From an uncultured Candidatus Poseidoniales archaeon (lineage in GTDB: Archaea > Thermoplasmatota > Poseidoniia > Poseidoniales > Poseidoniaceae): DNA of 34,931 nt. The notes beneath the pieces were generated by a model. That model was not told the origin of the DNA. It ran no database searches and saw only the letters and a list, made by a program, of their open reading frames with translations. Shown one piece after another: positions 8,385-11,864 of the stretch (position 1 is the stretch's first letter; each line of letters opens with the position of its first letter). The stretch is from assembly GCA_902563095.1 (NCBI GenBank), contig CACEWA010000013.1, forward strand, positions 1 through 34,931, read 5' to 3'. Made by a program: the position numbers and the translations under genes.

Positions 8385-9407
8385 ATGGATTTGATTCAGG
8401 CGGCCTGGATGATTCGAGATTTAGGCCAACCAGTCAGTTCCTTAGACATCGAAGAAGATTCGATAATTGCAGGAGGGTGGAATGGGGCTCTCAAGATGTG
8501 GAATGGAGATGGTGATATTCTTTGGTCTACTCAATGCGAAGACCGAATCGAAGCAATATTACGAATCGATGAAATTGTAGTAGTAACTTCTGGTTTACAC
8601 ATCGCCTGTGTAAAAGCGGGGGAAATTCTTTGGAGCAATCCATTGGAAGGATCGGCAGATTTGTTAGCATATCATGATGGTAATATCGTTGCCACCTCAA
8701 GTGTTTATGATATCGAGCATGGAGATTTTATGGAAAGCGCAATATGGCGTTTTTCGCTTGATGGAGAGTTAATCGAAGTGACTCGCATGGATGAGAGGCC
8801 ATGGTTTTTGCATTCAGGCCAAGATTTGATACTTGCACTTGGTCGGCCTAAATGCGGGCTATTGGTTAACGGCGAGCATAGGGATTTACCCAGTATGTCG
8901 CCAGTAATGTGTGGTTTGTCTGGGCGAAAAAACATCTTGTTAGGCCATGCTGATGGGACAGTATCATCTTCTAAAGGAGAAGAGATTAGTAAAGAACCAT
9001 TCTCTATCGAATCTCTTACTTGTGTAGAGAAAGGATTCGTTGCAGCTTTAGAAAACGGCCAATTAGTCGCTAGAACTCCAGAATCGGCAGAGATGTGGAC
9101 TGCCAGCGGGCCACAAATCACAACACAAATAGCAGGATTTGACGATTTACACTGGTGCGGAAGATGGAATTCCATGCGTGGACAGATTGAGGTTAGGGAC
9201 GAGATTGGAACTCTAGTGGTTTCAGCAGAAACTTCTAGACCCAGGGTATCAGATTCCTCCGAGAATCGAATTGGATTCGGTTTTGAAGATGGCCAAATCT
9301 TGATTTGGGAAAGAGAATTATTTCATCGCCGTTCCAAGCAAGAAAACGTAGAAGAAAATAGTAGGAATTCAGCACTTGCAGCCAAACTCAGATCATTGCG
9401 AAAATAA
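8385..9407 (+). CDS. Cytoplasmic beta-propeller (WD40/PQQ-like) repeat protein
   Basis: Repeated strand units with small-residue turns and Trp-rich closures suggest a seven-bladed-type propeller: IIAGGWNGALKMWNGDGDILW, then VVTSGLHIACVKAGEILW, then NILLGHADGTVSSSKG, then FVAALENGQLVARTPESAEMW, and finally IGFGFEDGQILIWERE. No signal peptide or membrane span is present, so it should be cytoplasmic. The C terminus is a charged helical tail ending AAKLRSLRK. It is the last gene of the hflX run, and a structured RNA region begins just after its stop. The partner or ligand cannot be told from sequence. Confidence 0.8.
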   Translation: MDLIQAAWMIRDLGQPVSSLDIEEDSIIAGGWNGALKMWNGDGDILWSTQCEDRIEAILRIDEIVVVTSGLHIACVKAGEILWSNPLEGSADLLAYHDGNIVATSSVYDIEHGDFMESAIWRFSLDGELIEVTRMDERPWFLHSGQDLILALGRPKCGLLVNGEHRDLPSMSPVMCGLSGRKNILLGHADGTVSSSKGEEISKEPFSIESLTCVEKGFVAALENGQLVARTPESAEMWTASGPQITTQIAGFDDLHWCGRWNSMRGQIEVRDEIGTLVVSAETSRPRVSDSSENRIGFGFEDGQILIWERELFHRRSKQENVEENSRNSALAAKLRSLRK

Positions 9408-9427
9408 TGTTATTTATTGCCAAAACC

Positions 9428-9479
9428 TTCCAGTGGAAGCAGTGGAAACCTTGCTCGCAAGCCCCCATTTCCGCTGGAA
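9428..9479 (+). other. Hairpin element just after the beta-propeller gene
   Basis: TTCCAGTGGAA (9428-9438) can pair with TTCCGCTGGAA (9469-9479) with one G-U pair. Inside it CTTGCTCGCAAG (9450-9461) folds into a second, four-base-pair stem capped by CUCG. The element lies between the stop codon at 9407 and the promoter at 9495-9508. It may be a 3' processing or termination structure for the hflX run, or a separate small RNA. Confidence 0.5.
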
Positions 9480-9494
9480 AAGGGCCAAAAAAAG

Positions 9495-9508
9495 CGTAAA
9501 GTTTATTT
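9495..9508 (+). promoter_or_regulatory. Archaeal BRE/TATA promoter of the structured RNA
   Basis: CGTAAAG followed at once by TTTATTT is a close match to the euryarchaeal BRE plus TATA arrangement, the type seen at strongly expressed stable-RNA genes. With the usual spacing, transcription would start near 9530, just before the first hairpin of the G+C-rich region (9534-9551) and with no start codon nearby. Confidence 0.6.
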
Positions 9509-9529
9509 GCCTCCTCGCCACAAGGGAAA

Positions 9530-10363
9530 ATTGCCGCTCCACAAGGAGTGGTGGAGGACTTCCTCGGAAGGCCTCCGGGACCCTTGCCAACCGGCCTGCT
9601 CAAACCGAGCAAAGTGTTGGTCACGAACCTTGGAGACAAGGTAAGTGAGGCGTCAGGGAAGATACGAGATTTTCGGAGATCGTAAGTTCCCCCGCCCACA
9701 GGATGACTCGGAGCTTCGGCAAAGAGTCAGCCACACAACCTTCGGGAAGTGTGGAACAGGGAGGGCTGCGACCTAGTCGCAGAAGTACCAACGACTGTGC
9801 ATCGCCGGTAGGAGTGACAGTAACAGTTCTTCGGGACAACCTCTGTCACAAATAACGGCACGGCGAAACCGCGCCAGGAAAGAGACCTTCGGGAAACGGA
9901 ACTGGAAACGGACGCCACGGACGGAAACCGCGCCATCCGCCTCTTGGGGCGGATGGAGACGGACCTCCACGCCGGGACCGCGTCTGAGGCTTGCTTCAGA
10001 AAACGGACGGCACCGCTGGAACAAATAGGACCACTTCGGTGGAAATACGAGAACTAGCAACCGGTAGAGAGGAACGCATCTTTCGGGGTGCAGGAATCGA
10101 TACCACCCTGGGAGCTAACCACTTCGGTGGAAGGCGAACAGAAACCCGGCCGCTGGGAAGAAGGCGTCTTGGCAACAAGGCGTCAACGATCTGGAAGATG
10201 CTCTTCGGAGTAAACGAAGGTGACGACGACCCGGCAGCCACCAGCGGAGGCTGGCAAGGGGGCGGATATCCCACCCGGATGAAACCCCCTTGCCAGTTCT
10301 CCCATCCTGCTCTCACAGGTAATCGGGTGCCAGTGCGTTCCGCTTATGACTGTTAAGGGTCAT
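9530..10363 (+). ncRNA. Large UUCG-rich structured non-coding RNA of unknown class
   Basis: About 830 bases, visibly richer in G+C than the surroundings, with no credible protein frame. Short stems are capped again and again by UUCG: TTCGG occurs nine times between 9671 and 10208. Supported hairpins include 9534-9551, 9553-9576, 9705-9728, 9731-9754, 9814-9849 (7-bp outer stem), 9933-9956 (9 bp), 9984-9999, two identical copies of CCACTTCGGTGG (10031-10042 and 10119-10130), 10076-10091, the GCAA-capped 10168-10179, and a perfect 12-bp stem 10251-10262/10285-10296. Single-stranded joints are rich in GGAAAC-like purine runs, as in RNAs with tertiary contacts. The strand is set by UUCG reading correctly on plus, the promoter at 9495-9508 and the end hairpin at 10346. 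A few strings resemble RNase P RNA (GCCACGG, AAACCG, CAAATAGG, ACAGAAACCCGGC at 10138), but other universal blocks are absent. Exact ends are estimates. Confidence 0.8.
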
Positions 10364-10374
10364 TTCTTATCTTA
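10346..10374 (+). terminator. Terminator-like hairpin and T-rich tract after the structured RNA
   Basis: ATGAC (10346-10350) pairs with GTCAT (10359-10363), followed by TTTCTTATCTT. T-rich tracts end archaeal transcripts, and this is the first such tract after the G+C-rich RNA. It lies about 20 bases before the stop codon of the convergent fumarase gene. Confidence 0.45.
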
Positions 10375-10394
10375 CAACCACTTTTACAGAGTGA

Positions 10395-11786
10395 TTATTT
10401 TGAGCCGGTCATTTCTTCTGGCCGGACCCATTGATCAAATTCTTCATTGGTCAAATAATCAAGTTCTAGAGCGGCTTCTCTTAACGTAGTACCTTCTTCG
10501 TGGGCCTTTTTCGCGATCTTTGCTGCCTTATCATAACCAATGTGATTGTTCAAAGCTGTAACCAACATTAATGAATTTTCAAGGTGATTTCTGATTACTT
10601 CTTCATTCGGCTCAATGCCTTCAATGCATTTCGTCCTGAAAGCGCGCATAGAATCTGAAAGAATTCTAACACTGTGCAAAAGATTGTGAATCATCATGGG
10701 TTTGAATACGTTCAACTCAAAATTCCCTTGGCTACCGCCTACAGTGATTGCGACATGATTCCCCATAACTTGACAGCAAACCATCGTCATTGCTTCAGAT
10801 TGAGTCGGGTTTACCTTGCCTGGCATAATCGAAGAACCGGGCTCGTTTGCAGGCAGAGATAGTTCCTGTAATCCACATCTGGGTCCAGATCCTAACCACC
10901 TGACATCGTTTGCAATTTTCATCAAACTTACTGCTAAAGTGTTCAATGCGCCACTTGCAGCAACAATTGCATCATGCGCAGCCAATTGTGAAAATTTGTT
11001 GGGCGCAGTTGTGAAAGGAAGATTTGTCTTCAGTGCTATTGCAGAAGCTACACGCTTAGCGAATTCAGGATGAGTATTCAAGCCGGTACCTACCGCTGTA
11101 CCGCCCAATGCCAACTCATGCAAATCCTCCAAAGCAAACTCTACTCTCCTTAGGTCTGCATCAAGTTGGGCAACCCATCCACTCGCTTCTTGCCCTAGAG
11201 TAAGTGGCACTGCATCCATAAGATGAGTTCTACCTATCTTGACAATATCTGACCACTGTTCCGACTTTTGTGAAAGCGCATCTCTAAGCAAAGTTAGGTT
11301 AGGAATCAGGTCATGAGTTATCGCTTCAGCACTTGCGATGTGCATAGCAGTAGGGAAGGTATCATTGGATGATTGAGCACGATTCACATGGTCATTTGGA
11401 TGAACTGGAGATTTTGAACCAAGAACTCCGCCAGCCATTTCAATCGCTCTATTAGCGATTACTTCATTGGCATTCATATTGGATTGAGTACCGGAACCAG
11501 TTTGCCAAACCCTTAGTGGAAAATGGTCATCCAACTCACCATTGATTACTTCCTCAGCGGCCGAAATGATGAGTTTAGCAACATCGGAATCTAGTTGTCC
11601 CAAATCAGAATTTACCTTAGCAGCAGCCTGTTTAAGAATACCGAATGCGCGTACAACTCCTCTTGGCATTTTGTCATCACCAATATCGAAATTGATGAGC
11701 GACCTAGCGGTTTGACAACCATAGTATCTGTCTGCAGGGACTTCTAGTTCACCCATGGTATCAGCTTCAATTCGTACTTCTCCCAT
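10395..11786 (-). CDS. fumC: Fumarate hydratase, class II
   Basis: FumC interconverts fumarate and L-malate in the citric acid cycle. Conserved blocks are easy to see: [13 protein letters not shown] at the N terminus, [69 protein letters not shown], and the superfamily signature [13 protein letters not shown]. The length (463 aa) matches. The ATG at 11786 (MGEVRIEAD) is chosen over an in-frame ATG nine codons upstream because homologues begin near this point. The gene is monocistronic as far as can be seen, divergent from the sulfotransferase and convergent with the structured RNA. Confidence 0.97.
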
Positions 11787-11864
11787 ATTCTTCCGGCATA
11801 GCCGACCGTCCATGTCCCTTTCCCTCTAGTAAGCGTCAAAGGGGTGAATCTCGAGCAGAGAATA

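Follow-up and report, generated by a model that had tools for sequence, protein, structure and literature searches.

An 831-nt stretch on the forward strand (9527-10357) of the analyzed window, a 34,931-nt contig sequence from an uncultured Candidatus Poseidoniales archaeon, constitutes an independent, gene-like unit encoding a large structured RNA that is conserved across the order Poseidoniales. We regard it as nearly certain that this locus is a real structured RNA gene. Its 5' end is placed from the TATA box and its 3' end where conservation stops, near 10357; in relatives, the core measures roughly 500-1,270 nt. The locus is present once in the genome of origin, a Poseidoniales assembly in 50 contigs that is 63% complete. 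An earlier note on this DNA, made from its letters, had proposed a large structured RNA here, and that proposal is upheld by conservation in relatives, strong covariation in two separate alignments, and a lack of Rfam matches. The RNA most likely represents a new class: it matched none of the known families against which it was tested and, judged by length, is probably distinct from the previously described RNA Tan1.

The composition of the locus agrees with the description in the earlier note. G+C content is 0.55-0.61 over positions 9500-10300 versus about 0.43 in the flanking genes, confirming a G+C-rich stretch. The nine reported TTCGG loops all lie on the forward strand, where dinucleotide shuffles (n = 500) give a mean of 0.97 and a maximum of 5, and CCGAA does not occur. 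The minimum free energy is -360.8 kcal/mol (z = -4.7), a value reached by none of 20 shuffles. ORFs tested within the RNA region have no Pfam match, and indel lengths between relatives are not multiples of three (105, 48, and 20 cases with remainders of 1, 2, and 0, respectively). Thus, a protein-coding reading is ruled out, in line with the claim that the region lacks a protein-like frame. The reverse strand also folds with low energy (z = -4.0), but paired columns hold 279 G-U cells versus 61 A-C cells, and these counts, together with the promoter, support the forward strand. Adenine makes up 44% of unpaired bases versus 13% of paired bases, so the joints between hairpins, noted earlier as purine-rich, prove to be A-rich.

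We examined the fold by counting compensatory changes. The counted structures were derived from the same alignments, which favors them over versions with slid partners; the margin is nonetheless large, at 5- to 8-fold. In an alignment of 17 sequences of the genus (A5), the fold comprises 239 pairs in 44 helices, with 95.6% of cells pairing, so that the earlier count of at least eleven hairpins was an underestimate. Two-sided changes occur in 97 of these 239 pairs, giving 313 compensated cells versus 91 in shuffled controls and 37-50 when partners are slid. Across genera (48 sequences), the 5' domain has two-sided changes in 22 of 29 pairs, with 202 compensated cells versus 15-34 in slid versions. 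For the second Poseidoniales family, aligned separately (12 sequences, 564-652 nt), two-sided changes affect 82 of 154 pairs, and the compensated cells number 196, versus 62 shuffled and 27-39 slid; the terminal helix of this family differs by genus, appearing as GCAGGGGG/CCCCCUGC, GCAGGGAAAA/UUUUUCCUGC, or ACAGAGAACA/UGUUCUCUGU. Compensatory change is therefore well above both kinds of control in the two separate alignments, and the secondary structure is under purifying selection.

From its 5' end, the RNA contains helix P1 (9533-9552, forward strand like all elements of the RNA; GCCGCTCC-loop-GGAGTGGT), which is the most widely conserved element, followed by helix P2 (9553-9576), which covaries within and between genera. 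Helix P3 (9586-9621) pairs GCCAAC with GTTGGT around an inner GCTC/GAGC hairpin; it is invariant within the genus and uses AU, GC, and CG pair types between genera. A long-range pairing suggested by RNAalifold, GTTGG (columns 90-94) with CCAGC (777-781), was replaced by this local helix because P3 covaries between genera. The variable middle (9622-10141) consists of UUCG-capped hairpins and A-rich single-strand joints, with covarying helices throughout. The 3' domain comprises an outer multi-branch region (10148-10239) with the GAAGAAGG hairpin, GTCAACGATC, and GTGACGACGAC, and a 17-bp GC-rich helix with the conserved loop GGATATCCCACCCGGATGAAA (10246-10302), which is near-invariant in the genus and whose equivalent covaries strongly in the second family. 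The 3' tail (10303-10357) carries a CCTG/CAGG hairpin and the conserved GCTTATGACTGTTAAG. Near-invariant unpaired stretches of the 3' domain include GGATATCCCACCCGGATGAAA, CACAGGTAA, and GTCAACGATC.

The RNA is conserved in its 5' and 3' domains, and its middle is variable and evolves by module duplication. Genus g16 carries six copies of a 63-nt module with a purine-rich GAACCGGAGAGAACTGGACGCAAGGAAGGGGGAGG / GAACYGGACGCAAGGAAGGGG unit (L125:4214-4787), g19 carries two copies of a 207-nt module, and g15 carries two copies of a 117-125-nt module that includes the 3' core, the core copies lying about 330 nt apart inside one gene (L134, L088, L090, L092, L093, L094). No direct repeats of at least 30 nt occur inside the window copy. 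CTTCGG hairpins are enriched in most lineages, and the repeated unit varies by lineage, with UUCG hairpins in the window's family (family 1) and GCAAGGAAG units in family 2.

At the level of conserved sequence elements, the RNA has its own promoter. Both families conserve the motif AARRTTTAW some 22-30 nt upstream of the first hairpin, and in the window a conserved archaeal TATA-box-like element, AAAGTTTATTTG, lies at 9498-9509 (forward strand), matching the promoter that the earlier note had placed before the RNA. Upstream of the TATA box, TTCC/GGAA half-sites and the near-palindrome TTTCCRSTGGAAA occur at similar positions in both families. In the window, these correspond to two putative operator boxes. 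Box 1, TTCCAGTGGAAG then an CAGTGGAAA half-site (9428-9448, forward strand), is conserved in the genus alignment, and further genera of the two families keep it in the form of half-sites; box 2, the near-palindrome TTTCCGCTGGAAA (9468-9480, no strand assigned), has a conserved position before the TATA box. The exact TTTCCRSTGGAAA is found at a single genomic place in each of four genomes (G000, G012, G014, G024), always in the promoter of this RNA, and exact palindromes elsewhere in other genera fall partly inside coding sequence. The motif was not seen upstream of the RNase P or SRP loci looked at, so an operator common to those genes was rejected. We infer that a dedicated transcription factor may recognize TTTCCRSTGGAAA. 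At the other end, the T-rich hairpin described earlier is present in the window (ATGAC...GTCAT then TTTCTTATC, about 10346-10374); its proposed role as a terminator is unsupported, because the stem is broken in relatives.

A blastn search recovered the RNA from 23 of 27 genomes of the same genus, with identities of 73-96%. More distant copies were sought with covariance models of the 3' domain (R1, built from alignment A1) and of the 5' domain (R2, a separate model, and R3, a broader one). With R1, matches were obtained in two further genera of the window's family, at E = 1e-15 to 2e-20, and in three genera belonging to the other Poseidoniales family, at E = 3e-9 to 6e-15; scores drop from about 200 to 16-60 bits between families. 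R2 matches the same loci upstream, on the same strand and at a sensible distance. Syntenic intervals of other genera were fetched via a fumC search. R3 matches family-2 genera g12-g18 and g20-g22, and g19 weakly, and the RNA is present in every examined genus of that family. In the family-2 loci where both genes were found, the beta-propeller gene and fumC are separated by 660-1,461 nt, and most such intervals match one or both models; within and between many of these genera, the RNA can be aligned end to end over about 560-800 nt. In both families, the locus lies nearly always between these two genes, so the homologous intergenic regions to which the earlier note had pointed do carry the RNA.

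The RNA is apparently absent from several genera of the family to which the window belongs. It was not found in g3-g6 and g8-g11 with R1 or with R3 under lax filters, including in one single-contig genome; strongly diverged copies could escape, since even the syntenic g19 copies reach no better than E = 0.2-0.4 with R3. In g3, g5, and g6 (L098, L102-L106), the propeller gene and fumC abut, 6-9 nt apart, without the RNA, which represents either a clean loss or the state before gain. Beyond the order, no match was obtained in 293 sampled genomes of the phylum. With one exception, carrier records are Poseidoniales or marine Euryarchaeota MAGs, including a single-cell genome (AG-461-G23), and its presence there indicates that the RNA is not a binning artefact. 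The exception is a SAG labelled 'Deltaproteobacteria bacterium AH-558-G13' (L219, JAOMAZ010000026.1), which carries a Poseidoniaceae RNA that groups with genus g7; the label is probably wrong or the genome contaminated. Genome G018 has two different copies on two short contigs (L007, L024), probably reflecting a strain mixture.

The neighboring genes serve here as context only. The upstream gene (8385-9407, forward strand) encodes an 8-bladed beta-propeller (AlphaFold2 mean pLDDT 90.7), whose model best matches designed 8-bladed propellers and BamB in the PDB; the window protein has no Pfam assignment above cut-off. The propeller evolves fast, with about 31-38% identity between genera. Downstream, fumC (10395-11813, reverse strand) is convergent and contains the Pfam domains Lyase_1 and FumaraseC_C. 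Since the propeller persists beside fumC where the RNA is absent, this obvious candidate partner is not tied to the RNA, and we rejected it as an obligate one.

We compared the RNA with known families. None of the window and 14 further loci matches an Rfam 15 family, OLE, GOLLD, and ROOL included, at gathering score, and neither window positions 9400-10420 nor six loci of the other family match at E<=1. Two short matches for the window at E<=10 (E = 4 and 6.2) were attributed to chance, leaving no confident match to a known family. In size and complexity, the RNA is nevertheless of the order of OLE, GOLLD, and ROOL, as the earlier note had judged for its complexity. Like OLE (Firmicutes, about 600 nt), it is single-copy, chromosomal, large, and intricate, with an unclear function, but it belongs to another domain of life and shares no sequence or structure match with OLE in the Rfam scans. 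GOLLD and ROOL, from bacteria and phages (about 500-800 nt), are often viral; they resemble it in size, in having a well-conserved end and a more variable part, and further in a possible viral copy of the RNA described here, but the latter has no Rfam match, lies outside tRNA arrays, and occupies a fixed syntenic locus over the order. In a loose sense, it joins the large ornate RNAs.

By elimination and analogy, we favor, with a probability of about 0.55, a regulated trans-acting scaffold of an RNP or of an RNA-only particle. The RNA would be transcribed from about 9527 and would present its conserved 5' and 3' domains with an extensible hairpin array between them. The terminal domains would bind constant partners, and the middle would act as a spacer or multivalent platform, drifting in length and module content, with a specific transcription factor that turns expression on or off in response to some condition. 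Because the operator implies such a factor, a constitutive housekeeping role is improbable for this RNA, in keeping with the fact that several genera apparently lack it. The duplication of modules in the middle is easier to reconcile with a scaffold or platform than with a catalytic core of fixed form; counting against a scaffold, the invariant unpaired stretches of the 3' domain would suit a catalyst equally well. The scaffold reading and its rivals partly overlap, and their likelihoods are not meant to sum to one.

Among other functions, titration of a protein, in which repeated short hairpins bind and sequester one protein, is unlikely. 6S RNA acts on RNA polymerase and CsrB on CsrA, and the RNA described here shares with such RNAs a putatively regulated promoter, as would suit a regulator, and, in some relatives, repeated hairpins, up to the six GAACYGGACGCAAGGAAGGGG units of g16 and the CTTCGG hairpins enriched in most lineages. 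It has no homology to them, however: the repeats, which differ between lineages and reach no direct repeat of at least 30 nt in the window copy, are not its conserved part, and what is kept are the single-copy 5' and 3' domains. The size, complexity, and near-invariant unpaired GGATATCCCACCCGGATGAAA, CACAGGTAA, and GTCAACGATC could instead belong to a large ribozyme, which we consider rather improbable, as the 3' core is not sequence-invariant between families (the R1 drop from about 200 to 16-60 bits) and no Rfam ribozyme or intron matches. The constant placement between propeller and fumC in two families raises the prospect of action in cis, as a 3' UTR of the beta-propeller mRNA or an antisense or convergent regulator of fumC. 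Such a role seems quite doubtful, given that a promoter and an operator of its own separate the RNA from the propeller stop codon, that the fold itself is what is conserved, and that g3, g5, and g6 retain both genes without the RNA.

Other alternatives concern identity and origin. No description of this RNA was found in the papers searched, the only published MG-II RNA of unknown function that we found being Tan1 of Ca. Thalassoarchaea (229 nt, structured), which ranked fifth in transcript abundance in an RNA-Seq set from the Red Sea (PMC5069720). The shared archaeal group, complex fold, and unknown function, and the high abundance of Tan1, would fit an identity of the two, or Tan1 as a fragment of the present RNA, but we give this little weight: judged by length and not by sequence, 229 nt contrasts with the 560-800 nt alignable end to end in the same family, and if Tan1 were a piece of it, blastn matches to homologues should extend further. 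We therefore lean towards Tan1 being a different RNA or a fragment. It is highly improbable that the locus is a known RNA such as RNase P, SRP, or tmRNA in strongly diverged form, for which only size and fold complexity speak. The RNase P and SRP RNAs, likewise large and stable in archaea, are separate genes: RNase P RNA (RF00373) lies elsewhere in the same genome (G000:C16:7164-7460, 220.8 bits) and archaeal SRP RNA (RF01857) lies elsewhere in 10 of 10 relatives searched, although it was not found in the 63%-complete genome of origin. The locus contains no tmRNA or tRNA, and the Rfam scans are empty.

A viral contig of 72 kb, IMGVR_UViG_3300007514_000005, bears on origin from, or exchange with, mobile elements or viruses of Poseidoniales. 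It is magrovirus-like and encodes a terminase, a portal, PolB, and a chaperonin of archaeal type, a gene content from which we assign it, as a probable virus of Poseidoniales, to this host group. In an apparently non-coding promoter and P1-like stretch (L197:1530-1880), it carries AAGGTTTATTAA, about 22 nt, TTTGCCGCTCCTGTGGAGTGGTGTG, a second stem, and GCGGG, thus sharing the TATA box, the spacing, and the exact P1 hairpin. A viral origin or exchange is nonetheless doubtful. The R3 match (25.8 bits, E = 0.004) is to a contig chosen by pattern, one of 31 matches of which the other 30, and five of six in a second scan, look coding or chance; a third scan was too loose for use. The 3' model does not recognize a 3' domain there, the fold z is only -1.4, neither phage records nor the stretches examined around relatives of the viral polymerase contain the RNA, and the cellular copies are syntenic, not mobile. 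The same contig has a possible 3' hairpin CGCAGGGAAGGACTGCGCCCACC at L197:1530-1880, a second promoter-like AAAGGTTTAAGTGC followed by a long, well-paired, apparently non-coding stretch (L197:2458-2890), and many AATTTGTAGC repeats. A bolder combination, a new large archaeal RNA class that builds particles or catalyzes, is switched by a transcription factor, and has a viral version serving in virus-host conflict or exploiting a host process, is a minority possibility that we hold as speculative.

The carriers of this RNA are archaea abundant at the ocean surface. The alignments of two families, the covariance model, the fixed locus, and the near-unique operator motif make its expression, partners, and structure directly testable. 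If it proves to be particle-forming or catalytic, the small group of giant natural RNAs now represented by OLE, GOLLD, and ROOL would come to span a second domain of life.
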